Assembly: GCA_944358855.1 (NCBI GenBank)
Contig: CALVSC010000005.1
Coordinates: 1 to 42,321 of the forward strand
Origin: an uncultured Bacilli bacterium
GTDB lineage: Bacteria > Bacillota_I > Bacilli_A > RF39 > UBA660
Length of the DNA stretch: 42,321 bases
Reading direction: 5' to 3'
Position 1 is the stretch's first letter, and every line of letters starts with the position of its first letter. A model generated the notes under the pieces. That model searched no databases, was not told the DNA's origin, and saw only the letters and a list, made by a program, of their open reading frames with translations. Shown here in pieces: positions 3,602-28,837 of the stretch. The translations under genes and the position numbers were made by a program.

Positions 3602-3893
3602 TCATGAAACACCAACCTTTCCAATGATACGTTTGCGGAGTAGTAAAATAATCATACATCTCAACAATAATTGTTAAAATATTATGATAATACGGTACAG
3701 GCATAACCAAAAAACCACAAAACACCGCAGGACTAAGAATAGCAATAGTTACCCAAGTATTGGTAAGAGGCATAAAAGCCAACAATATTACTGTAATCAT
3801 AACTCCCGTCATAAACAATATTAAATCGAAAGGTCGAAATAATCCTAAGATTAATTGACCTTTTTTTGTATTAGCAGGTATTAAATAATTCAC
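3573..3893 (-). CDS. PrgI-family (VirB3-like) membrane protein
   Basis: A 106-residue protein starting at a GTG codon. It has the PrgI layout: an N-terminal YLIPANTKKGQLILGLFR stretch, two closely spaced membrane segments (about 23-43 and 47-67), and a soluble C-terminal part. PrgI proteins are the Gram-positive counterparts of VirB3, small inner-membrane partners of VirB4. Position directly before the TraC-like and VirB4 genes is the standard order in Gram-positive conjugation-type modules. The ribosome binding site before the GTG is weak, and the gene starts 23 bases after the virB6-like stop, so re-initiation may matter. Confidence 0.85.
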   Translation of the reverse strand: MNYLIPANTKKGQLILGLFRPFDLILFMTGVMITVILLAFMPLTNTWVTIAILSPAVFCGFLVMPVPYYHNILTIIVEMYDYFTTPQTYHWKGWCFMNEKENSIRK

Positions 3894-3916
3894 TATATAT
3901 CACACTCACTTTCATT

Positions 3917-5983: not shown

Positions 5984-5997
5984 TAATAATCACCTGC

Positions 5998-7242
5998 CTA
6001 ATTCAATACACAAATCGTATCTGTCGTAATACCAAATACATTTAATAACACACTCACAAGTGTAGGGATCAAGAAAATAGCAACTGCTAAAATTAGACGA
6101 ATAACTAATTTCCTTTCTGCTTTCTTCATATGATCATCATCACTTGAAATAATAGATTTAGCAAAATCTAAGCTACTAAGAATAACAACCAAAATAGGTC
6201 CTAATATTTTTACATAATTTAATATTTGTTGCAAAAGCCAAGCAACACTTTCTTCATCTTCTGTACTTCCTAATAAAGAACTACATTCATCAATTTCATC
6301 ACCAAACTCCAACTGTCCTTTTAAATCCTCAGTCGTTAAATCTCCAGATGGTTGTGTAAAACTATTACTACCATGTCCATTATCACCACTTGAACTTGAA
6401 TCACCAGAATTACTATCAGGTTCACCAAATGCACCGTTTGCATAAGTAGACCCAAATTCTTGTCCATCAACAGTACTTAACTCATCATTAGTACAAGATT
6501 TAGCATCTTTAGACAACTCATAAGAAAAGCCTTCATCATTTTGAACAACGCAACGATATATTTGAGTAGGACAACTAGTAGAAGACGCACCAAAAATACT
6601 CTTTAATAAAGAATTGTTAACGGAAATTGAAAATGCTTCTCCATCTACCTTACCAGAAATAGTTTTAGCAACAGAAAAGAACTGATTTCCATCCAAACTC
6701 CACTCTTGAGATCCATCATCTAAAAGTCTAAAATAAGGCATAATATAACTAGAACGATTAAAAAATCCCATACTTGGTGCAGCACAAGTAGAAACAACAG
6801 ATTTAGACTTTACATTCTTATCTTTTGCCCAGGATGTCAAAGTTAAATCAGCAGACGAAATATTATAACAATGTCCACTACATGAATCTCGATAAATAGG
6901 ATATGCGTAAACAGTAACACCTAAATCAGAATCTTGTACTCCAATAGTAGGACAAGTAATAGTAGAACTATTAATTTTAGATGCACTATAAAATTGTTTA
7001 CTAAAATCATCAGAATGATACCAAGACTTACCATCTCTAGCAAAAAGAGTTCCATCACTAAATGGTAATTTTATATCCCCATCATTATAAATATCATACT
7101 TTAACTTTATAAGTTTACCATTAGTATTTTCAAATTGATATTCACAACTAGCAACCTTATTATTCAAAGCATTGGTATTATATGGAAGGCAAAATATAAT
7201 TCCGACAACAAAAACTATTAAGAAAAATTTAAAAAATTTCAC
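5998..7242 (-). CDS. Secreted protein with C-terminal VirB2-like two-helix hairpin
   Basis: I start this at GTG 7242 (414 residues), because GGAG lies 8 bases upstream; the in-frame ATG at 7248 is only 2 bases from it. Residues 1-26 form a signal peptide or anchor (KFFKFFLIVFVVGIIFCLP). The middle is an exported, cysteine-containing region (TCPT, SCSGHCYN, SCPTQIYRC motifs) and a Ser/Gly/Asn-rich linker. The last 70 residues repeat the two-membrane-helix hairpin of the upstream small protein, including the shared core ISSD and AVAIF...TLV. This looks like a tip or adhesin module built onto a VirB2-type hairpin. It has its own predicted promoter after a terminator. The exported part has no recognised fold. 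Confidence 0.78.
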   Translation of the reverse strand: MKFFKFFLIVFVVGIIFCLPYNTNALNNKVASCEYQFENTNGKLIKLKYDIYNDGDIKLPFSDGTLFARDGKSWYHSDDFSKQFYSASKINSSTITCPTIGVQDSDLGVTVYAYPIYRDSCSGHCYNISSADLTLTSWAKDKNVKSKSVVSTCAAPSMGFFNRSSYIMPYFRLLDDGSQEWSLDGNQFFSVAKTISGKVDGEAFSISVNNSLLKSIFGASSTSCPTQIYRCVVQNDEGFSYELSKDAKSCTNDELSTVDGQEFGSTYANGAFGEPDSNSGDSSSSGDNGHGSNSFTQPSGDLTTEDLKGQLEFGDEIDECSSLLGSTEDEESVAWLLQQILNYVKILGPILVVILSSLDFAKSIISSDDDHMKKAERKLVIRLILAVAIFLIPTLVSVLLNVFGITTDTICVLN

Positions 7243-7263
7243 CGTCATCACTCCATATAAACA

Positions 7264-7292
7264 ATTATACAGAATAAGTATAACAAAATAAA
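7264..7292 (-). promoter_or_regulatory. Predicted promoter for the VirB2-fusion / virB6 / virB4 genes
   Basis: Perfect -10 TATAAT (7264-7269) with a 17-base spacer to a weak -35 TTTATT (7287-7292) that lies in the U-tract of the preceding terminator. A short leader of about 15 bases would carry the GGAG at 7251-7254. Confidence 0.5.
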
Positions 7293-7319
7293 AAAAAAAT
7301 AGCAATTACTTTGCTATTT
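7290..7319 (-). terminator. Rho-independent terminator after the VirB2-like gene
   Basis: Nine-base-pair stem AAATAGCAA / TTGCTATTT with a five-base loop, followed on the minus strand by a run of about seven T. It lies 13 bases after the stop at 7333 and would separate expression of the small hairpin protein from the downstream secretion genes. Confidence 0.85.
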
Positions 7320-7332
7320 ATTATCTATAAAA

Positions 7333-7689
7333 TTAATTAATACTGTTCCAGCAGTTTGCCCAACTATTAGTATCAGCTTCACCATCACCAGATTCAGCAC
7401 CAGTAGCAACTAAAGACATAATCAAAGTTACTAAAGTAGTGATAAAGAAGATTGCAACAGCATAAATACATCTCTTAATCAAACGACTTTGTGCTTGTTT
7501 TACTTCTTTCTCATCACTTGATATAACAGCCTTACCTAAATCAATAGTACCAAAAACAATTAATAAAATTGGGATACCAATTTGAACAATTGGGAAAACA
7601 CCTTTTTTAATAATTCTTACAATTGGTCCTAAACCGCCACAGTTGTCATTAATATTTCCAACAACTCCAATTTGAAATAAATTTGACAT
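7333..7689 (-). CDS. VirB2/TrbC-like two-helix pilin or channel subunit
   Basis: A 118-residue membrane protein. Start ATG 7689 is preferred because AAGGAGAG lies 7 bases upstream; a TTG two codons earlier is too close to it. Two hydrophobic helices (about 20-42 and 65-95) are joined by a short charged loop with the sequence ISSDEKEVKQAQSRLIKR, matching the size and topology of VirB2/TrbC subunits. The gene has its own good promoter and is followed by a terminator, which would suit a subunit needed in many copies. The same hairpin recurs at the end of the next gene and at the start of the NlpC/P60 gene at 27939-28826. Whether it forms a filament or a membrane ring cannot be told from sequence. 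Confidence 0.8.
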   Translation of the reverse strand: MSNLFQIGVVGNINDNCGGLGPIVRIIKKGVFPIVQIGIPILLIVFGTIDLGKAVISSDEKEVKQAQSRLIKRCIYAVAIFFITTLVTLIMSLVATGAESGDGEADTNSWANCWNSIN

Positions 7690-7714
7690 AAACAACTCTC
7701 CTTCGTTATAAATA

Positions 7715-7743
7715 ATATTATCTTAAAACAAAATATTTGTCAA
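7715..7743 (-). promoter_or_regulatory. Predicted promoter of the VirB2-like gene
   Basis: Consensus -35 TTGACA (7738-7743), 17-base spacer, -10 TAATAT (7715-7720). The -35 begins within a few bases of the stop codon of the cpaE-like gene. It is the best -35 match seen in this locus. Confidence 0.65.
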
Positions 7744-7745
7744 CA

Positions 7746-8750
7746 TTACCTACGAAATAAACCAAAAATTCTATTACTTTCTTTTTTATTATCTTTTTTA
7801 ACCAACAATCCCATCCTAGCTAAAAAATCATCTAAAATAGAATTCCTCTTTCTTTCATCTAAAGGTGGCATATTATAAAACACTCTTGTACGAGCCTCAT
7901 ATTCAAAATCACCAATATCTTTATTTGTTAACAAACTTTTATTTAAAATAATTGTTTTCTGTTGAAGTTTATTAAAGATATTACGATTTTTTTTCATTAA
8001 TCTATTCAACTTAATAATAGATGGTTCTATCAAGTACAACACATCCGTGCAAAAAGAATCATCATTGCAATCATTTAAGTCAACTAAAATTACAGGAGCA
8101 GCAGAATATTTAGATAACAAGCCCGCAATCTGATCAGTAGATACCGACATCATATTTTTTTCATTAAAATATTGAAAGTCATTCTTATTAAGTTCAATAG
8201 CAATAATAGTATCACCATAATGAATCTTAAGTTCACGCTTCAACATATAAATCAATGTTGTAGCTCCAGCATGACTTGTAACATTCCTAACCCCAATAAC
8301 TCTACAAACTCTACTAGGACTTGTAGTATTAACTATATCATTACTCATATTAGGCGGTGGACTACCAGCACCCATTTGCTGAATCTTAGCAACCTGTTTA
8401 TAATTATTAGGATGATCTAGTAAATACTTAACACCATCCAAATTAGTAGTAAAATTATAAATTCCCATAGATATTAGTCTAGATAAAAAACTAGAAGTAC
8501 AAACATCACTACCCTCAGGTAAGAAAAATACAATTTTTTCAACATCAAGCCCCATAGCTAAAGTCTGAAAAGTCTTAATATTATGAAAATTCTTTAATGC
8601 TGTAACGTCTAAAATCATTTTATTATAAAAAAAGTTTTTAAACATTTCAACAAGTTCGCTAGCTTCATACTCACCAGAAATACTTTTAATAACATCAATA
8701 TCTAAATTTGATAAAGCATTGCGTTGTGCATTACTGACTATAACGTTCAT
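7746..8750 (-). CDS. CpaE/TadZ-like pilus localisation ATPase homologue
   Basis: A 334-residue soluble protein in the TadZ/CpaE position of a Tad locus. Residues 1-125 look like a degenerate receiver-type domain; residues 150-310 match the MinD/ParA-like part. The P-loop region reads TSHAGATTL where MinD-type proteins have KGGVGKTT: the signature lysine and the P-loop lysine are both replaced, so hydrolysis is doubtful. The later VILVDLND segment occupies the Walker B-like position. TadZ/CpaE proteins place the pilus machine at a cell site and partner with the CpaF ATPase. AGGTGAG precedes the start. A catalytically dead scaffold is my inference. Confidence 0.75.
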   Translation of the reverse strand: MNVIVSNAQRNALSNLDIDVIKSISGEYEASELVEMFKNFFYNKMILDVTALKNFHNIKTFQTLAMGLDVEKIVFFLPEGSDVCTSSFLSRLISMGIYNFTTNLDGVKYLLDHPNNYKQVAKIQQMGAGSPPPNMSNDIVNTTSPSRVCRVIGVRNVTSHAGATTLIYMLKRELKIHYGDTIIAIELNKNDFQYFNEKNMMSVSTDQIAGLLSKYSAAPVILVDLNDCNDDSFCTDVLYLIEPSIIKLNRLMKKNRNIFNKLQQKTIILNKSLLTNKDIGDFEYEARTRVFYNMPPLDERKRNSILDDFLARMGLLVKKDNKKESNRIFGLFRR

Positions 8751-8762
8751 AGACTCACCTAC

Positions 8763-9218
8763 CTACTCAAACTTAGTTATTAACTTCGTATCTCCGGCAA
8801 CTTGGAAAATCTTTAAATTAGGCATAATTTTATTAACAATTGGAATATCAATTATAATCTGTGTAGCAATACGATAATATACTTGTGTCCTATGCTCATC
8901 AGTAGCACCAGTACTTGAATCAACTACATATTCCTTATAACAATATCCATCACTACAACTATCATACCCATCTAAATTAGAAACACTAGATTGATGATAT
9001 CCAACTTGCTTCATATAAGCCTGAATTTGTTGATTACAAACATTACTAGGATTATTAGGTTCACAATTACCTTCATATTGTTCAAATTTCGTGATAATGT
9101 AGTTCTTGACACGAAATGCCTTAGTATAATTAACATTAAATGCTAAATAACCAGTAACTAAAACCAAGAAAACAACAATCATAGCTAAGTTTACAACTCC
9201 ACCAAAAGCATCCCGCAT
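8763..9218 (-). CDS. TadE-like minor pilin
   Basis: A 151-residue protein with a very short N-terminus (MRDAFGG), one long hydrophobic helix (about 8-28), then an exported domain with four cysteines (NCEP, VCNQ, SCSDGYC). This is the TadE/TadF layout: a pseudopilin-like N-helix without a classical long leader, followed by a disulfide-capable head. It lies between the Flp-like pilin and the CpaE-like gene, as expected for a minor pilin of a Tad system. A similar single-helix protein is at 13513-13980. Confidence 0.72.
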   Translation of the reverse strand: MRDAFGGVVNLAMIVVFLVLVTGYLAFNVNYTKAFRVKNYIITKFEQYEGNCEPNNPSNVCNQQIQAYMKQVGYHQSSVSNLDGYDSCSDGYCYKEYVVDSSTGATDEHRTQVYYRIATQIIIDIPIVNKIMPNLKIFQVAGDTKLITKFE

Positions 9219-9249
9219 CTTCTACACTACCCTTCTTTTTTCTTTTTCG

Positions 9250-9420
9250 TTATTTATTAAAATGATCAACAACAATAGTACCACCACTATTAATATTAGC
9301 CCATTGACTATTAATAGCACTTTGAATACTTGGCCACATTAACCAGAAGAATCCAATAACCGCTGCAATAGCAATAAGAGTAATAACTGTTAAGTTTAAT
9401 TCACCAGTAGCTGCTTTCAT
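9250..9420 (-). CDS. Flp-like 56-residue pilin
   Basis: A very small gene with strong signals: AGGAAAGGATGTG before the ATG at 9420 and its own extended -10 promoter. The product has a six-residue leader-like start ending in Gly followed by Glu (MKAATG, then ELNLTVITLIAIAAVI), one hydrophobic helix (about 9-28) and a short polar tail. Flp pilins of Tad systems have this size and shape, and it sits between tadC and the tadE-like gene. The exact prepilin cleavage site is not canonical: Flp usually has Gly then Glu-Tyr at positions 5-6 of the mature helix, and there is no such pair here. It is the best candidate for the main filament subunit. Confidence 0.72.
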   Translation of the reverse strand: MKAATGELNLTVITLIAIAAVIGFFWLMWPSIQSAINSQWANINSGGTIVVDHFNK

Positions 9421-9457
9421 TAATAAAACACATCCTTTCCTATTCTCTACAATAAAT

Positions 9458-9486
9458 ATTATATCAACATAATTTTTATTTTACAA
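9458..9486 (-). promoter_or_regulatory. Strong predicted promoter of the Flp-like pilin gene
   Basis: -35 TTGTAA (9481-9486), 17-base spacer, extended -10 TGATATAAT with perfect TATAAT at 9458-9463. It lies in the 82-base gap after tadC, consistent with extra expression of the pilin. Confidence 0.7.
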
Positions 9487-9502
9487 TACAAATTAAATTA
9501 CT

Positions 9503-10288
9503 TTACATTTGGAACATCATCATCATAGATATTAAAATAATAACCATAGTACCTGCACCAGTAACTACAAGCATAACCATTGTCTGACTTTCCATATGAC
9601 CTAATCTCTCTTTATATTTTGTCTCACGAGCCTTATTTTGAAGATTAGAAACCGTTCTAGAAAACATCATCAAACGTTCTTGCTTTCTCTCCTGAGAACC
9701 TAATCCTAAACGATACAACAAACGCATCATTCTCATAGAATCTCTAACTGGATAAGTATTAGCAAACTCCATATAAGGATCAATAGAAGAATCACCAGAA
9801 TTTATACGTTCAATCAATCTCCTAAGACCAGGTTTAAAAATATCTGGAGCATCATCTATTGACTTACCTAAAGCAACAGGTACAGTATAATGCTGAATTA
9901 AAATTTCCAAACTCTTTAAATAGTATGGCAACATTACATCAATATCATGCAAATGTGCCTTATAAAAAGATTTTAACTGTGTATATGGCATTTTAAAAAC
10001 CAAAACAGCAACAACAATACAAAATACAATATTAAGAAAAGATAACTGATTTAAAAAGATAAATAAGAATACAATTGCAACAACTAATGCATACCAAATT
10101 CTCTTTCTAAACAATTGATTAGGATCAACTTCCTCACCATATCTTGCATAAACTAAAAAGTCATAATCATCTTCTCTTAAAATATTAAAATATTTTTCAT
10201 TATCTGCAATAAACTTATTTTTATCAATCGTATTATTATAAATTAATATAAAGATTATAATAGCACCAACAACAACAATTTCAAACAT
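9503..10288 (-). CDS. tadC: TadC-like pilus assembly membrane protein
   Basis: A 261-residue protein with an N-terminal helix, a hydrophobic pair at about 60-95, a helical cytoplasmic GspF-type domain (about 100-225) and a C-terminal helix rich in Met/Ile/Val. This is the T2SSF domain layout of TadB/TadC platform proteins. Start and stop overlap with tadB by one base (TAATG), so the two are coupled and probably form the inner-membrane platform moved by CpaF. Gene symbol by position as the second T2SSF gene of the Tad set. Confidence 0.82.
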   Translation of the reverse strand: MFEIVVVGAIIIFILIYNNTIDKNKFIADNEKYFNILREDDYDFLVYARYGEEVDPNQLFRKRIWYALVVAIVFLFIFLNQLSFLNIVFCIVVAVLVFKMPYTQLKSFYKAHLHDIDVMLPYYLKSLEILIQHYTVPVALGKSIDDAPDIFKPGLRRLIERINSGDSSIDPYMEFANTYPVRDSMRMMRLLYRLGLGSQERKQERLMMFSRTVSNLQNKARETKYKERLGHMESQTMVMLVVTGAGTMVIILISMMMMFQM

Positions 10289-11190
10289 TACTCAGCACCT
10301 ACATTCTCATTATAATATTTTTCACCTTTTAACAAGAAATAAGTATTAACTATCAAGACACCATGTAATAAAAGTTTAACATACCACCTATCAAGCATAA
10401 CCAGATAAGTTTCTCGTCCTAATAAATATTGTGTTAACATTACTAACAAATATAACATAATACCAAACTGTAAAAAGGATTTATGGAAAGTAGCACGTTC
10501 AATTCTATCTCGATAAACACTTTCAACTAACATATCGATATCTAGTTGCATATTATCCAAAGAATCCATCGCATTTTGTGCTCCTTCTTTAGTAATTTGT
10601 AAAAATAGTTGGTGCATATTCTTAACAATATAATATGGGTATAATTGACTCATATAATTAAGAGCATCATCGATACTTCCGTCTTGATAAGCTAATTCAA
10701 TCATATGATCAACGTCACTTTTTACAGGATCTTCCAAAATACCAGAATTACGAACACCCTCTAGTGCTTTAACAAAAGATTGTGTAGTGGCAAATTCCAT
10801 AATGGTATTAGAAGTATAAACCTGTATTTGCTCAAATATAAATTCGCTATAAACACGTTTACAACGTAAATATGATAAATATGGAACAAAAGATACAGCA
10901 ACAGCCATATAAATTAAAGAAATAAATAAATTGTAAAAATACAAATAGCTAACAACACCAGTAAACACCGCAATAACTACTACTTGTATTAAATATTGTC
11001 TAGGGGTATATTCTTGTCCCAATTCTTTTGTTTTCTCACGTACAACTTTAAAAGAATATGGTGCAAACTTATCATACATACCTTTAGCCTGAGAAGTAAT
11101 GAACTTGCCAACATTTTGTCCCTTATAATTACGATACAAAAAGATAACAAGGACTACAAATATGATAAAAATTAACTCCTCTAAATACAT
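10288..11190 (-). CDS. tadB: TadB-like pilus assembly membrane protein
   Basis: A 300-residue protein with an N-terminal membrane helix (about 5-22), a paired hydrophobic segment near 70-105, a cytoplasmic helical GspF-like domain with the EFATTQSFVKALEGVRN pattern, and a C-terminal hydrophobic stretch (about 240-290). It follows cpaF by 15 bases and is coupled to tadC. TadB and TadC act as the platform that transfers pilins into or out of the growing Tad pilus. Confidence 0.82.
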   Translation of the reverse strand: MYLEELIFIIFVVLVIFLYRNYKGQNVGKFITSQAKGMYDKFAPYSFKVVREKTKELGQEYTPRQYLIQVVVIAVFTGVVSYLYFYNLFISLIYMAVAVSFVPYLSYLRCKRVYSEFIFEQIQVYTSNTIMEFATTQSFVKALEGVRNSGILEDPVKSDVDHMIELAYQDGSIDDALNYMSQLYPYYIVKNMHQLFLQITKEGAQNAMDSLDNMQLDIDMLVESVYRDRIERATFHKSFLQFGIMLYLLVMLTQYLLGRETYLVMLDRWYVKLLLHGVLIVNTYFLLKGEKYYNENVGAE

Positions 11191-11205
11191 ATTATCACCC
11201 CTTTT

Positions 11206-12630
11206 TTAGCCTAAACTACCTAAAGTAGAAAAATCTACATTACCACTACCAGAATTAGTGGTATTATCTCCCGTTTCATTATCGGTAACACTAACAACCG
11301 GTTGTGTAACAGGTGTTGTTTCCGTAACAACAGGCTCTGCAGCCACTGCAGGAACCGTACCATCACTAGGAACTGTATTCGTAACAGGTGCAAGTGTTGG
11401 TGTATCATCAGTCTTTGGAACATCATCATTCACAACAACTGGCGCACCACCATCAGCAACTGATTGAATTACTGGTTCAACATTATTAACATTTGGAGTA
11501 TCAACTTTCTCATCAGTTTCCTTATTCTCCATAAACGCTTCTTTAGAAACATCATCCGTAAATGGTAAATCATCACTTAAATGTTCCGTAATAGCATTAA
11601 TATCAATATTTTGATTTTCCAAATATTCAATTAAATGTGGACTTGGTTTTCTCATCACAGGCTCTTTACCAAATAATTTTTGATAAATAATACGTGATTG
11701 TGGCTTATTATCCTCATCAACATAAAATTCACAAACCTCATCAACTTCACGATGAAATTTACCAAGTTTCTTACTATAATAAGCTTTAATATGAACACCC
11801 AATTGAATATAACGATAAATTGTGTTCAAAAACTGGTTAACATCCAAATCTGTCTCCATCAAACTATACATACGATAAGGAATTGCTGAAGCTTTATCAG
11901 CATGAATAGTAGATAAGATATTATGTCCAGATGAAATAGAGTTACGAACTGCAGAAACGGCTTCTGCACTACGAACTTCGGATAGTAAAATCCACTTTGG
12001 ATTCTGACGCATACAAGTAACCAAAACGTCTGTATAACTAGCAACATTATTAGTCTTCATCGCAACAATATCACGCTGAGGGAAAATCTTATCCAAATGA
12101 AGTTCCAAAGTATCTTCAATAGTAATAAGCTTTTCTTCTGTTTTAGTATGACTAGCTAAATACTTAACAAACTCAGTTTTACCAGAACCAGTTTCACCAC
12201 AAACAATAATATTACAATGTCCTTCAACACACTTGATTAAGATATCGTGAATATCTTGTGTGAAATAATCATCTTTAAGTAACTTCTCTTTTTCCAAACG
12301 AATCTTAGCTGGAGTTTTACGAATAACCATAGCAATACCATTAGTAGCAATAGAAGGATGCACAAAGTTCAAACGTAATTCAGCAGACTCAGCATCCAAA
12401 AAAGGTTTTGCATTATTAAAAGTTGTACCCATGACATTAGAACATTGAAATGCTAATTTTTCTACAAACTCAGGTGTAAGACCTTGAACTTCTACTCTAA
12501 GAGAGCCCTGGGTTAGAGAACGAATCCAAGTTTGTCCATTATTATCAAAAGAAATATCTGTAATATCATCATTATCAAGTAAAGGCCTTAAAGGACCAAA
12601 ATCTAATTTATCAAAAATATTTTCATTCAT
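11206..12630 (-). CDS. cpaF: CpaF/TadA-family pilus assembly ATPase with low-complexity tail
   Basis: A secretion ATPase of the VirB11/CpaF family. Start ATG 12630 (474 residues) is chosen because AGGAG lies 9 bases upstream; the ATG three codons earlier abuts it. The Walker A motif GETGSGKT is at 145-152, the Asp-box region at 170-176 (TIEDTLE), Walker B at 213-221 (WILLSEVRS) and the conserved His region at 241-245 (IHADK). From about 365 to the end is a Pro/Thr/Val/Asp-rich, disordered tail ending in Gly-Ser-rich sequence, which CpaF proteins normally lack. It should drive assembly through TadB/TadC. VirB11 also works with VirB4 in type IV secretion, so this enzyme could serve both halves of the locus; that is inference. 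Confidence 0.93.
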   Translation of the reverse strand: MNENIFDKLDFGPLRPLLDNDDITDISFDNNGQTWIRSLTQGSLRVEVQGLTPEFVEKLAFQCSNVMGTTFNNAKPFLDAESAELRLNFVHPSIATNGIAMVIRKTPAKIRLEKEKLLKDDYFTQDIHDILIKCVEGHCNIIVCGETGSGKTEFVKYLASHTKTEEKLITIEDTLELHLDKIFPQRDIVAMKTNNVASYTDVLVTCMRQNPKWILLSEVRSAEAVSAVRNSISSGHNILSTIHADKASAIPYRMYSLMETDLDVNQFLNTIYRYIQLGVHIKAYYSKKLGKFHREVDEVCEFYVDEDNKPQSRIIYQKLFGKEPVMRKPSPHLIEYLENQNIDINAITEHLSDDLPFTDDVSKEAFMENKETDEKVDTPNVNNVEPVIQSVADGGAPVVVNDDVPKTDDTPTLAPVTNTVPSDGTVPAVAAEPVVTETTPVTQPVVSVTDNETGDNTTNSGSGNVDFSTLGSLG

Positions 12631-12663
12631 CCAACCCATCTCCTATTCTTTATTTTATTATTT

Positions 12664-13482
12664 TTAACCAATACTTTCATCCCAATAAGTAACCGTTTCA
12701 ATCCAACTACGTAAACTATCACTGTCTAATTCCAAATCATCAGGATTATCTTTTAAACTTTCATTCGTTGGTACAGGAACTAACTCTGAATCATAAGATT
12801 GTAAATAACTAGCTTTCTTTAAAAGAATATAATATTCTTCAGGTAAGGCAAATACAATCATAGCTGGAGTTCTTTGCTCATCTAAATTAGAAAACACTGG
12901 TAAACCTGCAGAATCTTTAACTGCTAAAACTTTAACATTTTTCAAGAATCTACCATACTGCATTAATTCTGGATCTCCATTCGTAGTTGCAACACTATCA
13001 GCATCTTGAATTCTTGTAATTCTTAAATAGATATCAATATAATTTCCTGGATAAATAGAGTTACCATAAGTAGACTCAATATTAACAGGCATATTATATA
13101 AAACATAACCCTTTGGATAGTCCAAAATTATATTAGCTGGTAATTGTTCTTTTTCAACAACTTGTCTAGTATAGAATAAACTACCCTCTGGAATTAAAGT
13201 ATCAGCATTAGAATACTTATCAATAACATCAGCCTGGTTTGTAATGACATCTCCTTCAAGCATAGAAGGAGGTACTTCCCTAGTACCTACCATCGCTTCT
13301 GTAATTTGAACACCAGGATCAATTTGTTCTTTCGCATATGGAACAACAACTGGATTAACAGCAGACTGAACTCTCATATTATAAGCAATGTATAATATCA
13401 AAACAGCTGCTACTACACCAACAACTGTAACGGTGTTTTTATTTGATAAGAACTTCTTAAAACCAGTACCTAAATTACCCAT
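12664..13482 (-). CDS. cpaB: CpaB/RcpC-like SAF-domain protein
   Basis: A 272-residue protein with one N-terminal membrane helix (about 18-36) and an exported part beginning with a SAF domain (about 45-115; VVPYAKEQIDPGVQIT...REVPPSM). A RcpC/CpaB-type region follows, containing YVLYNMPVN...GNYIDIYL. CpaB/RcpC proteins are periplasmic or cell-wall-facing parts of Tad pili. It lies directly before cpaF with a normal ribosome binding site (GGAAGGAG). Confidence 0.85.
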   Translation of the reverse strand: MGNLGTGFKKFLSNKNTVTVVGVVAAVLILYIAYNMRVQSAVNPVVVPYAKEQIDPGVQITEAMVGTREVPPSMLEGDVITNQADVIDKYSNADTLIPEGSLFYTRQVVEKEQLPANIILDYPKGYVLYNMPVNIESTYGNSIYPGNYIDIYLRITRIQDADSVATTNGDPELMQYGRFLKNVKVLAVKDSAGLPVFSNLDEQRTPAMIVFALPEEYYILLKKASYLQSYDSELVPVPTNESLKDNPDDLELDSDSLRSWIETVTYWDESIG

Positions 13483-13512: not shown

Positions 13513-13980
13513 TTAATTAACAACATTAATTTTACCTAAATCACTACTTGGATCATTTAATTCATCAGTAACATATTTATCATTCTGATATGTATTTTCA
13601 AGTATTGCATCAATCTGTGTTGACATTTCCAAGTTACTTTCTTCAAAACTTAAAACAGTAGAAGAATCCGCTTTAACACTTACTTTAGGAGGAACTTCAT
13701 TAATATCATAGAATGACAACTGATAATTTCTAGTTAAATCAACTGAATCAGCAAATCTTCTAACAAAACTTTCTACAAATTTTTCTTTATCCATTCTAAG
13801 TAAGCCGGTTTCACGATAATACTTAAGATCAAGCGCATCTACCATCGCAGCTTCTGAAGTTTCTTTCACCAGGTAGTAATCTAACTCACTACCTGATGAA
13901 TAGTTGGAAATGATATTAATCATAAGTAAAGCAGCTAAACTCAAAATGATAATACCAACAGTTAACATCGCTTTATTCAT
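13513..13980 (-). CDS. Small single-helix exported protein, minor-pilin-like
   Basis: A 155-residue protein with an N-terminal membrane helix (about 6-26) and a soluble, exported, cysteine-free domain rich in Asp/Glu. The layout resembles TadE/TadF minor pilins and the 151-residue protein at 8763-9218, but the exported part has no recognised motif. It lies between cpaB and the large cysteine-rich gene with short gaps, so it is almost certainly part of the apparatus. Function otherwise unknown. Confidence 0.6.
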   Translation of the reverse strand: MNKAMLTVGIIILSLAALLMINIISNYSSGSELDYYLVKETSEAAMVDALDLKYYRETGLLRMDKEKFVESFVRRFADSVDLTRNYQLSFYDINEVPPKVSVKADSSTVLSFEESNLEMSTQIDAILENTYQNDKYVTDELNDPSSDLGKINVVN

Positions 13981-13985
13981 AATAC

Positions 13986-16946
13986 CTATCTCCCTTCATT
14001 ATTTACACCTGGTGTACCACGTTCAAGAACAGCTCCACCAAGTCTATCAAGTAAATTACTATGATAATAAGTAAATGTATTATCTTCACTATCTGAAGAC
14101 TGTTTAATAGAACCATCATCAAAGTCTGAATATGACTTACCTTTATTGAACTCACGAATCTCGCGAAGAGCCTGATTATCTAATTGAATACGATAATCTA
14201 AGTAATTGTCATTATAAATACGATTACCTTCACTTTGAACTTTTTGAATATAAGCTAATGGATTAACAATATAACCATCATTCTTATTACTCATACTATT
14301 TTCAAGCAAACTAGCATCTGACATATTCTTTGAGCCCATGGTCCAGTTATAACCAGGTTGACGTCCTAAATTCAAACTATTAGCCGTTTCACTATCTAAC
14401 TTAACTTTATTTGCATCAGTTTCATTCTTCTGTGCAGGGAACAAATTACCAAGATCTACTACTCTAAATGTATAATCATCAAATCCAGTTTCATCACATT
14501 CATCACCAACACATGTAGAGTCTTCACAAATTAATTTATCATTCTCATCAAGTTCATAAGTCTCATTCTTCAAAGCATAGAAACATGAAATATCAAAATC
14601 CCATCCAAAGTAACCAAATTCCCTAGTACTAGCAAATATATTTTGATTACCAGCAACTTCTGCTTTAATTTGACTTTCAGTATAGCAATCACTATCTAAA
14701 ACAATCTTTTCCCACCATTTAGTATTAACGCTTTGAGCATCAAGTGGAATACAGAACTTATCTTCTTTTTCAGTCCATGCACCATCTGTAATAGGTTTAA
14801 ATGAAATTTCTCCAGTCTTATTATTAATCCATGTTCCAGGGAAACTCCATGCAGCTTGATAACGATCTAGTGCTGAACTTTCTTTATAACATCCAGTATA
14901 ACCATAATCTCCGTTTTCACCTAATGTTAAATCACTAGGAACAAAAATTGATTCGTTAAGGTTCTCACCATTACCACCATTACCAGGGGTTTTTACATTT
15001 GCTTTTCCGGTACTTAATGGGAATGTAACTTTTTGTGTCTTGCCTTCACCATCAACATATGAAGCACCAATTGTAAATGTAGATGTTCTTGTAGAACATG
15101 ATGCTGAAGCTTCACATTTAGCAATCGCAGCATTATAAGCATTCAAATTATTTAAATAATCTCTTGCAGCTTCACTATCATTTAAATATGAATAAGTACT
15201 ACAGCCACTCCAATAGCAAGGGTCTTGGCATAATCCACTTGTATAATGTTGAAGTTTAAATCCTTCACGACCTGGTAAATATAATCCAGCTCCAGCTTGA
15301 TTATAATAATCATGTTCAGCCTTTGTTCTAGCATCTTCATTTTCTTTATACCAACGTCCATATGTATTTCCCTTATTAGACCAACCGATATAACCATTCT
15401 TATTCATTGTATATTCACCTGCATATCCAGGAAATGGAATATAATCCATTTGAGCAGCTCTTGCCGTTGCCGTCTTAGCAGCTAATGGATCAGTTGTTGT
15501 ATTATCATCTCCATATACTTCTTCATAGCATTGTTTGCTACAAGCATCACTATATTTACCACCATCACAATTTTGAACACAAGAATCAAATGATTGATTA
15601 GGTCCACCTTGATGTGTTAATCCAGGAATATAGTTACAGAACGGAGTTGGTGAACAAACTCCAGGTTTAGTTGGAGGTGATGACTTAACATAAGAATCAC
15701 AAACAACTCTACTTGTTACACGAACTCTATATTCAAAACATAAACCTGCTTTTGAAACAACAGGAGGACCATATTCAACTACAACACTTTCCTCACAAAC
15801 CTTAGAACAAACATTGGCAGATTCAGATTTTGTATTTCCAGATGTATATGTATATTTATATGTAACTTTTTCTTCTGACTCTTCTTTAGCATAATAATAT
15901 TTTGTATTTTCTGGCTTGTAATATCCACCTGAACTTTCTGAAGTATCCACGCCATCTTTAGACATAGGAACTTCACAAGTTAATTTCTCAGTTTTTTCAA
16001 TAGAACCAGGTTTTTTAGAATCTGTATTCTTTTTTATGTACTGACTAAAATCATGGCCAGTAGCAAAAGCTTGTTTTTTAGCATAATTAAAGTCTGCCAA
16101 AAATTGGCTATCTGGAACATAATCAGGTTGCGTATTTTCAATTTCCTTAACATGTTCGATAGCAGAATAAATTAATTTAGCAGCAGTTTCATCTTCGTAA
16201 TTAAAAGCAACCCTCTCATTTAAACAATAATCAATTATTGTATCATAAGTTCCTTTTAATTCATCACTAACTGCATTATAGTTATATTGTTTAATCATAT
16301 CTTCAGAAACATGAGCTTTTTTTAATATACTAGCATAATCTGAATACCCTTCACCAGTTCTAAATACTTTACATAAACGATCATATTGTTCATTTGGAAC
16401 TGGATCACGAACTTCTTTAACAGGATTTATATCAAGTTCAACAGCTACTTGATAAGTGCCTACTTTTTGCCCAGTATCATCAGTAGTAGCTTCATCATAT
16501 GAAAGACAAGTATCATCTGTTTCAGCTAAAACCAAATTAACAGTAACAATAGCATTTACATTTTTAACTTCAACCTTTAACGGACTATCAGGAGTAATAA
16601 CAACACCATCTAGAGACGTAGAGATAGCATCACTTACACTACCAATATAATCTGAGTCATCTTCATTTCCATCTTTAACAGATGTTCCTTGCACTCTAAA
16701 CTTTCCATTATCAACAGAAATAGTTTGAGAAGTAGCACTTTTATCGACAACTGCAACACCATATTTTGTATCCATTTTTTCTGTAGGCGTACATTGCTTA
16801 CCATCTTTAGTTGGAGCAATGGTTTCATTTTTAGAAACTTCCGCAACATTTGTAGGTTTGTTAAAAGCTGTTCTAATACCAACAATTGCTGCAAATGCTA
16901 AAGCTATAAATAACACCCCAATGATTATTCTTTTACGCTTCATCAT
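13986..16946 (-). CDS. Large cysteine-rich anchored surface protein
   Basis: Start ATG 16946 (986 residues) has AGGTGGAG 6 bases upstream and overlaps the end of the sortase gene. After a short basic start (MMKRKR) comes one membrane helix (about 7-27); the rest is exported. I count 27 cysteines, concentrated in the middle (motifs VCSKVCEE, SCVQNC, ACSKQCYE, GLCQDPCYWSGC, ICEDSTCVGDEC), which suggests many disulfides. No LPXTG-like signal or C-terminal membrane helix is seen, so it is anchored at its N-terminus. It could be a stalk, tip or adhesin of the pilus. No family is recognised. Confidence 0.72.
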   Translation of the reverse strand: MMKRKRIIIGVLFIALAFAAIVGIRTAFNKPTNVAEVSKNETIAPTKDGKQCTPTEKMDTKYGVAVVDKSATSQTISVDNGKFRVQGTSVKDGNEDDSDYIGSVSDAISTSLDGVVITPDSPLKVEVKNVNAIVTVNLVLAETDDTCLSYDEATTDDTGQKVGTYQVAVELDINPVKEVRDPVPNEQYDRLCKVFRTGEGYSDYASILKKAHVSEDMIKQYNYNAVSDELKGTYDTIIDYCLNERVAFNYEDETAAKLIYSAIEHVKEIENTQPDYVPDSQFLADFNYAKKQAFATGHDFSQYIKKNTDSKKPGSIEKTEKLTCEVPMSKDGVDTSESSGGYYKPENTKYYYAKEESEEKVTYKYTYTSGNTKSESANVCSKVCEESVVVEYGPPVVSKAGLCFEYRVRVTSRVVCDSYVKSSPPTKPGVCSPTPFCNYIPGLTHQGGPNQSFDSCVQNCDGGKYSDACSKQCYEEVYGDDNTTTDPLAAKTATARAAQMDYIPFPGYAGEYTMNKNGYIGWSNKGNTYGRWYKENEDARTKAEHDYYNQAGAGLYLPGREGFKLQHYTSGLCQDPCYWSGCSTYSYLNDSEAARDYLNNLNAYNAAIAKCEASASCSTRTSTFTIGASYVDGEGKTQKVTFPLSTGKANVKTPGNGGNGENLNESIFVPSDLTLGENGDYGYTGCYKESSALDRYQAAWSFPGTWINNKTGEISFKPITDGAWTEKEDKFCIPLDAQSVNTKWWEKIVLDSDCYTESQIKAEVAGNQNIFASTREFGYFGWDFDISCFYALKNETYELDENDKLICEDSTCVGDECDETGFDDYTFRVVDLGNLFPAQKNETDANKVKLDSETANSLNLGRQPGYNWTMGSKNMSDASLLENSMSNKNDGYIVNPLAYIQKVQSEGNRIYNDNYLDYRIQLDNQALREIREFNKGKSYSDFDDGSIKQSSDSEDNTFTYYHSNLLDRLGGAVLERGTPGVNNEGR

Positions 16947-17739
16947 TGTATTCTCCACCTTTCATTACTTCATCAATTTCTTTATACTTATCCGTTTTTT
17001 CTACTGAATAGTTTCTCTTCATTTCACCATCACGTACTAATCTAGCATCGATTCTAATTTCACGATTTGGTTCATCGATAAACATTCTCGTACAAGTAAT
17101 TAAAGAAATTAATTTATCATTTTCGTCTACATCTATATTAAACTTAAAGATGCTATCTTTAAGGGATTGCTCAATATACTGTTTCATTTCTTTACTTGTG
17201 AAATCTTTTTCAACAAATACATTTGTATCTCCATGTTCAGGGAAAGAAACTGCATAAATCTTATATATGTAATTTTCCCCATTTACAGTATATTGAATAT
17301 ATTTATTTTCTTTAACAAAATCAAGATATACAAAACTCATCAAAGATTCAAAACGCATTGAATCCTCATCTGCCATTTTAGGATTAGCAGATAAATTCAT
17401 AAAATTATGACCTGATATCGTAATTCTATTTAACAATTTATCTGTCTTAATCTCATTCCAAGCAAAATTATCATTCATACCATCAAAATTAAACCCTGGG
17501 GCATAGACTACAGGAAAATCAATATTCGTTCCCTGTACTCTAATCCAACCGATTGTCTCATAATCTTCCGTATCTTTTTGTGCATACTCTTTTATCTTAT
17601 CAACCCTATCTTCTACAGGGTAATAATCATAAAACAGCATAAACATTACCGCACCTATTAAACACAAAAAAGATAGAATCCCTATCACTAGAAATACTTT
17701 CTTTTTTTGTTTTATTAACTTAACACTACTCTTTCTCAC
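16933..17739 (-). CDS. Class B-type sortase
   Basis: A 268-residue protein starting at GTG 17739 (AGGTGAG 7 bases upstream). One N-terminal membrane helix (about 14-36) leads to a sortase domain. Catalytic candidates are His111 in ITISGHNFM, Cys216 in SLITCTRMF, and an Arg within 226-233 (NREIRIDARLV). The extra helical insertion between His and Cys fits class B sortases, which attach pilins, haem proteins or other surface proteins to cell wall or to each other. It overlaps the cysteine-rich gene. No LPXTG- or NPQTN-type substrate signal was found among the visible neighbours, so its substrate is unclear. Confidence 0.88.
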   Translation of the reverse strand: MRKSSVKLIKQKKKVFLVIGILSFLCLIGAVMFMLFYDYYPVEDRVDKIKEYAQKDTEDYETIGWIRVQGTNIDFPVVYAPGFNFDGMNDNFAWNEIKTDKLLNRITISGHNFMNLSANPKMADEDSMRFESLMSFVYLDFVKENKYIQYTVNGENYIYKIYAVSFPEHGDTNVFVEKDFTSKEMKQYIEQSLKDSIFKFNIDVDENDKLISLITCTRMFIDEPNREIRIDARLVRDGEMKRNYSVEKTDKYKEIDEVMKGGEYNDEA

Positions 17740-17755
17740 TTCTTAACTCACCTGC

Positions 17756-19558
17756 CTACTTTGATATAACATATGGATCATCAAAAGTACCAGACCCATT
17801 AGAAATACTTACTTGTTTATCTAAATATCCAACCGGTCTAACACCATATGGAATATTATCATTAATGTATCCATACATAACAGTTCCAATCTCTGCCATA
17901 ACAGCTTTCGTATATTCTTCTTTAGATGAATTCAAGAACCAATAAGCTCCTAGACTTTCTGAATTAAAATCATACGCTGTGTATAAATCATAAATATTTG
18001 GAGCAGAAAATCTTACTTTATACTTTTTAGTATTACTTTCTTCACCATATTTAATATTACGTTTATAAATTGGAACCTCTATTTCTTTATTAACAAAGTA
18101 CTCGGTGTCAACATATTCAGGAGTTCTATTGTTAATGAAATATCCAACATTACCACGTTGTTTAGGGTTATATATTTTAGCTGTACTATTTGTTTCATAA
18201 ACAGTCATAGCTTGTACATCATTACTATCAGATAAAATGAAATCTCCAACCACTTTCGTAGTTCCATCACTTTCAGTTCCTATAATTCTCCATTTCATTC
18301 CTGAATAAGTTAGATATTCACCACTTTGACGAGTATTCAATTTATCTCCAACCTCTGCTCTTGCAAAATCGTCAATATCATATGGATTATCAATACTACC
18401 ATCACCATCAACTATTTTAGTATCACCTTTAATAGTAATTACTGGTCTAACACCAAAATTATAATTTTTATCAAAACTCATATAAGTAGACTGAACACCA
18501 AAGAAGACATCTCTTGTAGCAAAAGCATTAGTTGAATCTAATGAATTACGTATCCAAGAAATACTCATTGGATATAAATAACTATTACCATTCTCATCAC
18601 GTGCATTATTGTAATCTACTGCTGAAAGAATAGATACAGGAACACTCTTTGTCTCTTTACTACACTTTGTAATAGTAGAAATCTTATCATCTGTAGTTTT
18701 CATATTACAATATTTATTATCAACAATAAGTCTCTTAGAGGAATCAGCTAAATTATCATAATAATAATCTAACCACTCATCAATAGCTTGATAATTAACG
18801 TTACTAACATCTTGTTCAGCAACAATTCTAACATTATCACCATCAATATCTAATATACGGAACACATTACCAGAAAAATAAATATAATTATTAACATCTG
18901 CTCCCTGATAAACGCCATCACTTGTATTACGTTCTACCGTACTTTTTAAAGTAGCGATAACATTAACTTCTCTAGTGACTTCACTTTCGTTATTTAAACT
19001 ATCTGTTGCTGTATATCTAACTTTATAAGTTCCAGGATGATCTGTATCAACCTCGCTTGAATCGATTTCAACATCTTTAACATCCATCTTACCATCTGTA
19101 TTATCTACAACACTAGATACCCCCGGTTCTTTATATTTATCACCAACTTCTAGCGTAATCTTATCTTCGCCACTTAACATTATATCTGGTCCTCTATGAT
19201 CTACAGTTGAAGAAATAATACCACATTTTAAGTAAGCATAATATTTATATTCTCCATCCTCTTTACGAACCTTTACCCAACTCTCCGTAACAGAACATGG
19301 CTTTTTAGAAAATGGAATGTAAAAATCTTCTTTTAAATATGCTTGATCAAATAATTTTTGAACACTTAATGTCTTTACTCTAGTACCAGTTGGTAATTCT
19401 CTTTCATTAAGTTCATAATATCTCTTTGCCGCATCAATTGCCTGCTTTTCATAACCTTTGAAAGTAAGTAATGGTTGAATAACGAAAAACCACAATAACA
19501 AAGCAACTATAATAATGGCAACTGCAATTTTTAAATACTTAATAACCTTCTTATTCAT
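17756..19558 (-). CDS. Anchored surface protein: pseudopilin-like head, Ig-like domain, two repeat modules
   Basis: A 600-residue protein with an N-terminal membrane helix (about 9-30) and an exported region in three parts. Residues 35-115 resemble the head of the GFTLVE prepilin at 26436-27107 (AAKRYYELNERELP... ending YKYYAYLKC). Residues 125-205 form an Ig-like domain of the DUF5011 or bacterial Ig type (GDKYKEPGVSSV...PGTYKVRYTATDSLNN). Two copies of a module follow, each running from a YIYFSG/YLTYSG element to GVRPV and then DNPYDI/DDPYVI. The second copy ends the protein. Repeated modules of this type occur on surface proteins of gut Firmicutes; ligand binding is a guess. It is transcribed with the sortase and Tad genes. 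Confidence 0.75.
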   Translation of the reverse strand: MNKKVIKYLKIAVAIIIVALLLWFFVIQPLLTFKGYEKQAIDAAKRYYELNERELPTGTRVKTLSVQKLFDQAYLKEDFYIPFSKKPCSVTESWVKVRKEDGEYKYYAYLKCGIISSTVDHRGPDIMLSGEDKITLEVGDKYKEPGVSSVVDNTDGKMDVKDVEIDSSEVDTDHPGTYKVRYTATDSLNNESEVTREVNVIATLKSTVERNTSDGVYQGADVNNYIYFSGNVFRILDIDGDNVRIVAEQDVSNVNYQAIDEWLDYYYDNLADSSKRLIVDNKYCNMKTTDDKISTITKCSKETKSVPVSILSAVDYNNARDENGNSYLYPMSISWIRNSLDSTNAFATRDVFFGVQSTYMSFDKNYNFGVRPVITIKGDTKIVDGDGSIDNPYDIDDFARAEVGDKLNTRQSGEYLTYSGMKWRIIGTESDGTTKVVGDFILSDSNDVQAMTVYETNSTAKIYNPKQRGNVGYFINNRTPEYVDTEYFVNKEIEVPIYKRNIKYGEESNTKKYKVRFSAPNIYDLYTAYDFNSESLGAYWFLNSSKEEYTKAVMAEIGTVMYGYINDNIPYGVRPVGYLDKQVSISNGSGTFDDPYVISK

Positions 19559-19569
19559 AACTTTTCTCC

Positions 19570-21126
19570 TTATTTTAACCTATAAACATACTCCCGATCT
19601 CTAACTGTATATATCAACCGAATCTTACTAGCGTCACTCATCTTCTCAGGCACATCGAAATACATATAATTACCACTGTACTTTCCACGCAAGCTATTCT
19701 TGATAGTAACGTTATGCTTCTTACCTTTATTATCTATATAAACAATTTTACCATATTCTTCTGAAAAGTCAACGAATTCTTGGCCAGTAAATGTATCCGA
19801 AGTAAAGAATAATTCCAATATTTTTTTACCCTCTTTTGCATATAAATCATTAATATTTGCATAACAAGAATATCTAGTAGAACACTCCCTTGTTGTATAC
19901 GTTGTATAATCAACAACTTTAGCACTATCAATCGTAAAATTAACTTTATCATCACCAAAATGCAAAGTCTCATTTTCCGTTAATGTTTTTACTTTTTGTC
20001 TTTCCACTTGAGATACATCTTCAATATCTAATTTAATTTTTCTTAAATATGGTACTCCATCATTAAACTCTTGATAATATAAAACAAATTTATTAGGATC
20101 CAATTCTTTATCTACTTTAAAGATAAGTAAAAATCTCTGTTTTTCATCTCGGTCTAATGTAAGTTCTTCATAAGTAGTTCCCAAATCCTTAAAATCCGTT
20201 TCAAACGTACGATATGTCTGAGAATAATTTTCTGTTTTATTCATAATATGGAATCGATTTAAATTAACTTCTCTTTGTTCTAAAGTATTAGTTAATGTAA
20301 TATCTAAAACTACAAAATTACTATCTTTCGAAATAACATTACCTGTAAAATCTTTATCTGTAAAATAACTATGATGAATTTCTATTAAATAACCATCTGT
20401 TGGAATAACATCATTTTCATTATAAGATCTATGTGTAATAAAAATAAAACGATAAATAGAAACCACTAAAACTACAACAATTATAGAAATAATAATATTA
20501 CATATAAATTTATGCTCCTGATAAAAATAATTAATATTTCTAAGAAGTCGTTTAAACAACCTTTTAAAACTCTCTTTATCAACATTAACACTAATTTCTA
20601 TTTCTTCTCTATCATCTTTACTTAGTTCCAAAAACTCTTGATCAGATTTAAAATCAAACTTATTTAAATCAAGCCCAAAAATACGCACAAGAATGATAAT
20701 AATAATAACATATTGTGGTATTGTTCCCATGAACAGCAAATCATTAATTGCCCTTATACCCGTTGTTCCTGAATCTCTATCATATCCAGAGAAAAGTGTA
20801 ATAGCTAAAACAAAAGTAATAAATAAGAAAATATAAGAAAAGAATGGAACCACATATAACTTCCAAGGTTTCTTTTTATGCCTTAATAATACAATCAAAG
20901 TTCCTGATAAAAAGATTAAAATAATAATAGCCAAAATCGCCAAAACACTAGCATATTTAGTTATTGGTTCATAATAAGCATCGTAAGTTTCTAATTCCAA
21001 AAACTCTGTAATAAAAGAACGAGTTTGCATTGATTTATAATAAACAAAACAACATAAAAGTAACATAAAAACATGGATACGTTTAAAATGTTTAATTAAA
21101 AATGCATACGGTTTTCTAATAATCAT
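19570..21126 (-). CDS. Polytopic membrane protein with exported DUF4352-like domain
   Basis: A 518-residue protein, first gene of the apparatus locus after the greA terminator. Hydrophobic helices lie at about 16-32, 58-82, 92-118, 135-153 and 208-230. The remaining C-terminal half is exported. It contains a segment with the DUF4352-like pattern of a small immunoglobulin-like lipoprotein domain (SNFVVLDITLTNTLEQREVNL...DRDEKQRFLLIFKV). No enzyme motif is visible. It might be an envelope scaffold or sensor for the apparatus; the function is unknown. Confidence 0.7.
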   Translation of the reverse strand: MIIRKPYAFLIKHFKRIHVFMLLLCCFVYYKSMQTRSFITEFLELETYDAYYEPITKYASVLAILAIIILIFLSGTLIVLLRHKKKPWKLYVVPFFSYIFLFITFVLAITLFSGYDRDSGTTGIRAINDLLFMGTIPQYVIIIIILVRIFGLDLNKFDFKSDQEFLELSKDDREEIEISVNVDKESFKRLFKRLLRNINYFYQEHKFICNIIISIIVVVLVVSIYRFIFITHRSYNENDVIPTDGYLIEIHHSYFTDKDFTGNVISKDSNFVVLDITLTNTLEQREVNLNRFHIMNKTENYSQTYRTFETDFKDLGTTYEELTLDRDEKQRFLLIFKVDKELDPNKFVLYYQEFNDGVPYLRKIKLDIEDVSQVERQKVKTLTENETLHFGDDKVNFTIDSAKVVDYTTYTTRECSTRYSCYANINDLYAKEGKKILELFFTSDTFTGQEFVDFSEEYGKIVYIDNKGKKHNVTIKNSLRGKYSGNYMYFDVPEKMSDASKIRLIYTVRDREYVYRLK

Positions 21127-26435: not shown

Positions 26436-27107
26436 TTAAACCATATCCGTTTTAGTAGAATAATTTCCAAATTCATCATAAACAGTAATAACCGCTTTAG
26501 AAACTCTACCGGCATAAGGAGAAACATCTATAGTATTATTATAATTCTTACCAGACTCAATTTCTGTACCATCTGAATTATAAACAATATTACCACTAGC
26601 ATCATATAAAGTAAATTGATATCCCGCTAACGTAGTAGTAGAAGATGAAAATTTCAAACTTAACGTTGTTCCAGCGATAGAAGAACTATTCGTCAAAGTT
26701 GCTTTTTTCAATACACTATCACCATCAATAGTTTTTGCTGGGCACTTTAGATGTAAATAATATTGATAATCATCACCTTTTTTTATGACATATACATAAC
26801 TCTCATCAAGATAACATTCTTCTTTTCCATAATCAACAATATCACCTTTTTTAAAATATCCTGTATTTTCTAACGTCTGCAAAGAAAGTTTTCTTCTTTG
26901 ACCAGGAACAGTAGGTAAAGATGCTCTATGATCTGCAAAATATGCTTGAGCAGTTGTAACAATATTCTTTTCTGCAGTATCATAAAACATTTCTCGATTT
27001 CGATCTAACATCCAAGACACGGAAGCAATACCAACTCCCATTAAAATACCTAATATAGTTATTACAGCAAGTAACTCAACTAAAGTAAATCCACGACGAT
27101 CTAACAT
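26436..27107 (-). CDS. Type IV prepilin / pseudopilin with GFTLVE signature
   Basis: A 223-residue protein with a textbook type IV prepilin start: a short basic leader (MLDRRG) then FTLVELLAVITILGILMGVG, with Glu at position +5. The exported head (about 35-115) has AYFADHRASLP, a YVYVIKKGDDYQYYLHLKC ending and paired cysteines. The last 90 residues look like an immunoglobulin-like strand domain (SYAGRVSKAVITVYDEFG style). Prepilin peptidase would cut after Gly6. The head resembles the N-terminal exported part of the 600-residue protein at 17756-19558. No ComG-like ATPase is in the window. It is the last of three envelope genes inserted between trmR and trhP1. Confidence 0.88.
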   Translation of the reverse strand: MLDRRGFTLVELLAVITILGILMGVGIASVSWMLDRNREMFYDTAEKNIVTTAQAYFADHRASLPTVPGQRRKLSLQTLENTGYFKKGDIVDYGKEECYLDESYVYVIKKGDDYQYYLHLKCPAKTIDGDSVLKKATLTNSSSIAGTTLSLKFSSSTTTLAGYQFTLYDASGNIVYNSDGTEIESGKNYNNTIDVSPYAGRVSKAVITVYDEFGNYSTKTDMV

Positions 27108-28826: not shown

Positions 28827-28837
28827 AATACCACCTC

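Follow-up and report, generated by a model that had tools for sequence, protein, structure and literature searches.

The DNA stretch described here, referred to as the window, is a complete contig of 42,321 bases (CALVSC010000005.1) from an uncultured Bacilli bacterium, whose genome assembly (GCA_944358855.1) comprises 1.245 Mb, is 74% complete and holds seven sortases. One of these sortases is encoded in the window as part of a cassette on the reverse strand, which also carries the operon treated below. In order of transcription the cassette consists of a membrane protein of 518 residues (19570-21126), which forms its head and is conserved with it, the protein psp600 (17756-19558), a class B-type sortase of 268 residues with an N-terminal transmembrane segment (16933-17739) and a secreted protein of 986 residues with 27 cysteines (13986-16946, ATG at 16946), hereafter the giant; it lies upstream of genes resembling those of Tad pili and of type IV secretion systems (T4SS). 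psp600 is composed of an N-terminal transmembrane segment, a pseudopilin-like segment, an immunoglobulin (Ig)-like domain and two DUF6273-like domains. The start of the giant overlaps the stop of the sortase gene by 14 nucleotides, and the coordinates given for this overlap in a preliminary description of the window were right. Here we describe the sortase as a distinct class B-type subfamily whose β7-β8 region is altered and which forms part of a Tad/T4SS-like operon, and we assess its possible substrates.

In total 157 loci were found, of which the 80 from named genomes were kept for the synteny counts; these include genomes of the same genus that were also sampled separately. The gene immediately before the sortase is psp600 in 80 of 80 loci, and the one immediately after it encodes a cysteine-rich giant in 77 of the 78 loci with sequence on both sides. 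At the 78th locus 249 residues remain before the contig end, and two further loci stop at the sortase. The frames of sortase and giant overlap in 73 of 76 loci, most commonly by 14 nucleotides. A search restricted to close matches detected the giant in all 16 genomes of the genus, source included and each time with the sortase directly upstream, in 5 of 44 further family members and in none of 39 genomes outside the family. The pairing is beyond chance, as seen from the 16 of 16 genus genomes that carry it and from the conserved cysteine columns of the giant (26 of 27, see below). Orthologues of the sortase were detected in 39 of the 243 sampled genomes of the family, with a clean gap in E-values from 3e-39 to 1e-13, and psp600 is present in all 39, complete or nearly so. 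psp600 without a sortase orthologue was found in two further genomes, one of the copies being cut by a contig end. In a distance correlation over 55 loci the giant, psp600 and the 518-residue protein co-vary strongly (partial r 0.61-0.77).

Among families the sortase matches class B best (TIGR03064, E 9.2e-17), though its 61.1 bits fall short of the curated cut-off of 153.75; with PF04203 it reaches 24.8 bits, under the cut-off of 26.6. The nearest solved structures are likewise class B sortases (for example 5b23, 4ux7 and 1ng5), and the class given in the preliminary description can be retained, though below curated cut-offs. Among 89 distinct homologues the catalytic residues H111 (17407-17409) and C216 (17092-17094) are retained in 88, and R218, two positions after the cysteine (17086-17088), in 83. 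The lone exception for H111 and C216 is a degraded second copy of intact length (L067 in genome G184), in which His, Cys and R218 are all replaced and whose cassette has no psp600. Because His and Cys are retained, the protein is best read as a catalytically competent, active enzyme.

In the column that corresponds to the canonical β8 arginine, 4 of the 89 homologues have a basic residue, or 17 if the neighbouring column is counted (columns 226/227). By spacing alone, R or K is found at Cys+8 to Cys+10 in 25 of 89, including the window protein, whose R226 stands at Cys+10 with the spacing of S. aureus SrtB; in the accessible part of PMC11987632 the arginine of SrtB loops lies at Cys+8 to Cys+10. 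The first position of β8 is R or K in ten of ten further distinct class B-type sortases of the family, two of them from the source genome and eight from relatives. Judged from these alignments, the canonical β8 arginine position is not conserved in the subfamily and an arginine at Cys+2 is; R218 may act as the replacement. The region N115-R129 has a constant length of 15 residues in all 89 homologues, and a tail of about 32 residues follows R236.

The giant contains 2.74% cysteine, a content equalled by few other proteins, all of the same operon, and 26 of its 27 cysteines fall in columns where half or more of 35 homologues also have cysteine. It matched no Pfam or NCBIfam family, and a comparison of its sequence profile with solved chains gave nothing credible. 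It starts with a hydrophobic segment, which in our reading resembles a cleavable signal peptide in many homologues, and because of this segment the protein is taken to be secreted or N-terminally anchored. In 19 of 20 giants the N-terminal segment is the only strong hydrophobic one; the 20th adds one weak internal segment. The AlphaFold2 model (predicted local distance difference test, pLDDT, 73.7) suggests a domain resembling Ig and fibronectin type III (FN3) domains at about residues 56-174 and a cysteine-rich core at about 308-806. Matches of the Ig/FN3-like kind were obtained with VIA-align only for residues of about 51-177 (best Z 5.9, root-mean-square deviation 3.2, 89 residues aligned), and Foldseek with the entire model delivered no match at E≤0.001. 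The core folded separately (pLDDT 78.2) again had no Foldseek match at E≤0.001 and a best VIA-align Z of 4.8. Structure prediction, as proposed in the preliminary description, thus yielded the Ig/FN3-like N-terminal domain and no strong match for the core; such weak matches of predicted models are no demonstration of a new fold. The thiol oxidase gene suggested there was not found: VKOR and Thioredoxin_4 had no hits in the 74% complete genome, and the DsbA and Erv families were not searched.

The C-terminal tail of the giant contains the motif T978-P-G-V-N-N-E984 (13995-14015), the conserved part of which is the asparagine pair. Among 84 C-terminal ends, three of them truncated or broken by runs of N, N982 is kept in 78 and N983 in 75, amid otherwise variable sequence, and the three damaged giants all fall among the six without the tail asparagine. 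The pair sits a median of 13 residues from the C-terminal end, is preceded by Cys in 52 and by Val in 13 of the 84 giants and belongs to a consensus (I/L/P/V)G(C/V)NN. No membrane anchor follows it in the 20 giants checked for hydrophobic segments. Another motif of the giant, FPGTW, was considered as a sortase site and rejected: P is present in 77 of 84 and T in just 55 of 84, and the sortase-linked giants that diverge most lack the motif.

What defines a sortase is its sorting signal. Such signals were searched for with a detector that requires a P-x-T motif followed by a hydrophobic stretch and a basic tail; it reads closed frames only, and genes cut by contig ends are missed. No signal was found in the 60 closed frames of the window, in agreement with the preliminary description, which had seen none in any product; the same detector finds six at other loci of the source genome. 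Twenty large sortase-bearing loci gave none in 471 frames, and 80 sortase-bearing loci with 1,476 frames none except one antisense false hit. Since the sortase is fixed between a pilin-like protein and the giant, with no normal tag nearby, it probably joins surface parts by a non-standard rule. Such a reaction becomes testable here, since the conserved lineage retains His and Cys, has no signal nearby and includes a near-complete genome in which neither another sortase nor a signal was detected.

Downstream of the giant the operon continues with a DUF5411 protein (13513-13980; PF17424, E 1.3e-48), TadE-like to judge from its length and layout, which bears a C-terminal extension (residues 129-155, 13516-13596); DUF5411 proteins occur in 199 of the 243 sampled genomes of the family. 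It is followed by a CpaB/RcpC-like protein (12664-13482; PF16976 with 23.3 bits, below the cut-off of 28.8), a secretion ATPase of the CpaF/T2SSE type (11206-12639; PF00437, E 3.4e-27), two membrane proteins without a Pfam match, named TadB/TadC-like from size and gene order (9503-11190), a small pilin-like membrane protein with 4 cysteines (8763-9218) and a putative CpaE-like protein, also without a Pfam match (7746-8750). Two proteins with T4SS-pilin-like segments follow (5998-7695; PF18895, below cut-off). The larger of these (5998-7305) comprises 435 residues, is secreted, contains 12 cysteines (2.76%) and has a weak T4SS-pilin-like segment at its C-terminal end; it appears to be a second cysteine-rich part of the apparatus. 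The remaining genes encode a VirB6/pLS20_p028-like membrane protein (3917-5983, below cut-offs) and, at 1257-3893, a PrgI-like protein, a protein of 184 residues and a VirB4-type ATPase. The last matches NF045975 with E 5.8e-107 and 358.5 bits, below the equivalog cut-off of 590, and PF19044 and PF12846 above their cut-offs. At one related locus (L056) the VirB4 gene is followed by a protein of 776 residues with SpoIID-like and C39-like peptidase parts (361-2688), of which the window has just the start.

The gene order recurs in relatives, where the Tad-type genes (CpaF, CpaB and TadB/C-like) and the T4SS-type genes are kept together in one operon as they are in the window (1257-12639); possibly this mix represents a hybrid surface machine. 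A type IV pilin-like protein that carries a class III signal (PF07963, TIGR02532) is encoded outside the main operon, at 26436-27107. In a further protein (27939-28841) an NlpC/P60 peptidoglycan hydrolase is fused to a T4SS-pilin-like membrane segment (below cut-off) at its N-terminal end; this protein could serve the same machine by opening the wall.

Our preferred reading, held tentatively and short of probable, is that the sortase is a dedicated part of the cassette which acts on the giant, most likely through its anchorless C-terminal tail. A class B-type sortase would have become a dedicated component of a cassette joined to a Tad/T4SS-like pilus or secretion operon. The giant would be exported by means of its signal peptide, folded through disulfides and exposed as an adhesin-like part of the apparatus. 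The sortase would act most likely at the flexible, anchorless tail with its conserved asparagine pair and attach the giant by a covalent bond to the pilus or to peptidoglycan. The gene order points to a substrate in the cassette or pilus, and the lack of ordinary signals points to one of a non-standard kind. The tail is put first among the candidates because in oral streptococci SrtB works on a neighbouring adhesin through a short tail that lacks an anchor. A specific form of this proposal, in which the sortase reads an anchorless G(C/V)NN tail and welds the giant to a lysine in the DUF5411 extension as a covalent fibre cap, the clamping arginine having moved from β8 to Cys+2, appears quite improbable.

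Several observations weigh against the giant as the substrate. No threonine stands at the expected cleavage place of the tail, where Cys (52 of 84) or Val (13 of 84) is found, and the sortase co-varies less with the giant, psp600 and the 518-residue protein (partial r 0.33-0.45 over the same 55 loci) than these do with one another. Giants without any sortase are common, 29 of them being present in 31 sortase-less loci: 12 giants with 18-62 cysteines in 11 loci, and 17 giants with 26-60 cysteines in 20 further loci. The slot of the sortase is filled there by a protein of about 200-260 residues with a signal peptide and a C-terminal transmembrane segment (11 of 11 and 15 of 17 loci). In favour of the tail as the sortase site, the asparagine pair is absent from all 29 of these giants; 11 of the 29 (5 of 12 by eye and 6 of 17) have a different conserved C-terminal tail and end in GP, two residues and K or R, as in GPAWK (L079-L083, L191, L192, L194, L197, L198 and L201).

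A midpoint-rooted tree divides the sortase-bearing and sortase-less operons into two sister groups. It comprises the 27 taxa that remained after prior removal of the G184 degraded-copy locus and of every locus with fewer than two of the three genes. Given this division, the tail, the DUF5411 extension and psp600 may have a single origin in common and not a function. In four cassettes inside the sortase-bearing lineage, three in genome G274 and one in G212, psp600 is followed directly by the giant without a sortase, and the asparagine pair is kept in 4 of 4. This is the strongest result against the tail as a signal used only by window-type sortases. In G212 the other cassette carries a sortase that looks active; in G274 no sortase orthologue was detected in the search of the 243 family genomes. 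The giants of G274 (L211-L213) are shorter, with 570-637 residues and 30-33 cysteines, and two of their C-terminal ends are nearly identical. The joint work of sortase and giant, as concluded earlier from their overlap, is borne out by the order psp600-sortase-giant in 77 of 78 loci and is weakened by the sortase-free giants and the four sortase-less cassettes.

A doubtful explanation that nevertheless has to be taken seriously is that the substrate of the sortase is a different component of the apparatus, namely psp600, the DUF5411 protein or a pilin, and that the giant is a mere neighbour; psp600 and the DUF5411 proteins are nearly as plausible as substrates as the tail of the giant. The linkage of psp600 is as tight as that of the giant (80 of 80 loci and 39 of 39 orthologue genomes), and the only cassette without psp600 carries the dead sortase, yet psp600 is also found without a sortase, three times in G274 and once in G212. 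The LPTG of psp600 (residues 55-58) is variable and lies near the N-terminus in the pseudopilin-like segment, outside any C-terminal signal. The DUF5411 protein has a C-terminal extension of at least 12 residues in 76 of 76 sortase-linked copies (the C-terminal end of three further copies was missing) versus 3 of 31 others, and 74 of the 76 extensions contain lysine; this correlation, however, represents one split in the tree.

Two features of psp600 were rejected as sites. In the LPTG motif T is present in 54 and G in 63 of 78 copies, within the pseudopilin-like segment. P29, near the transmembrane segment, is absent in 4 of 4 sortase-less copies, but it is also absent in 6 of 78 sortase-linked ones.

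That the protein is an ordinary sortase whose standard-signal substrates are encoded at other sites of the genome, with its position in the operon serving co-expression only, is unlikely. The source genome, only 74% complete, has six signals of standard type (LPVTG, LPNTG, VPPTG, NPETS, VPDTL and VPNTS), two of which lie at contig ends with no visible sortase; the other four are located within about 2 kb of another of its sortases. The NPXTN family TIGR03063 had no match above cut-off in this genome. At E≤1 the NPETS signal escaped PF00746, and a profile built from the six was therefore employed, which they match by construction in the source genome. In G163, a genome 95% complete, the window-type sortase is the sole PF04203 match, and no match to the profile was obtained at E≤1, whereas 11 matches were obtained in G000, 12 in G009, 5 in G250 and 6 in G133 (weak, best E 0.03). 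A single weak PF00746 match in G163 corresponds to the hydrophobic N-terminus of a frame of 92 residues. With 5% of that genome unseen, ordinary substrates in G163 are unlikely.

The preliminary description had regarded standard motifs elsewhere in the genome as speaking against an unusual sortase. Such motifs exist, and they are not decisive because in G163 only the window-type sortase and no signal were detected. Of the three options named there, a non-standard signal is the best kept and a substrate elsewhere in the genome is unlikely.

Very unlikely is a sortase that is no longer a transpeptidase and binds or holds machine parts without catalysis: the β8 arginine position is basic in few homologues (4 of 89, or 17 with the neighbouring column) versus R or K in ten other class B-type sortases, and one copy lacks H, C and R218, but retention of His and Cys in 88 and of R218 in 83 of 89 would be unexpected for a scaffold, and the window protein itself has an arginine at Cys+10, the spacing of S. 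aureus SrtB (loops in the accessible part of PMC11987632).

Compared with SrtB, the class B sortase, the window sortase is alike in the sequence of the catalytic domain, in the GHN and TC motifs and in the N-terminal transmembrane segment. It differs in scoring below the family cut-off, in the N115-R129 stretch, in the arginine at Cys+2, in the tail of about 32 residues and in having no nearby substrate with a sorting signal. No description of a sortase joined to an operon of this kind was found by word match in the open-licence literature of PubMed Central. An operon with CpaF, GspF-type and DUF5411 genes in the Clostridia Roseburia, Ruminococcus and Eubacterium is predicted to be secretion-related in PMC9523054, a paper with no occurrence of sortases; relative to what is described there, the window operon adds VirB4-, VirB6- and PrgI-like genes and the sortase cassette.

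In oral streptococci SrtB anchors AbpA, a small, helical adhesin, by LPKTS followed only by AVK, a C-terminal signal without hydrophobic and charged tail, according to the accessible part of PMC4974636. As far as that part goes, both loci share an SrtB-type gene beside a putative adhesin with a short anchorless C-terminal end; the giant differs in its 986 residues, its richness in disulfides, its place in a pilus operon and its tail (I/L/P/V)G(C/V)NN without an LPKTS-like motif. The AbpA tail, as described there, shows that anchorless signals exist, and the giant could be a second, larger case from uncultured gut bacteria.

In the sortase-assembled pili of Gram-positive bacteria a sortase is gene-linked to a surface fibre with an LPXTG-type pilin. 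The window cassette shares this linkage of a dedicated sortase with them, and it differs in having no LPXTG-type pilin, in its Tad/T4SS-like machinery and in a sortase that is dispensable in the sister group. If the proposed role is true, sortase chemistry and Tad/T4SS-type assembly, two fibre worlds thought to be separate, would be linked.

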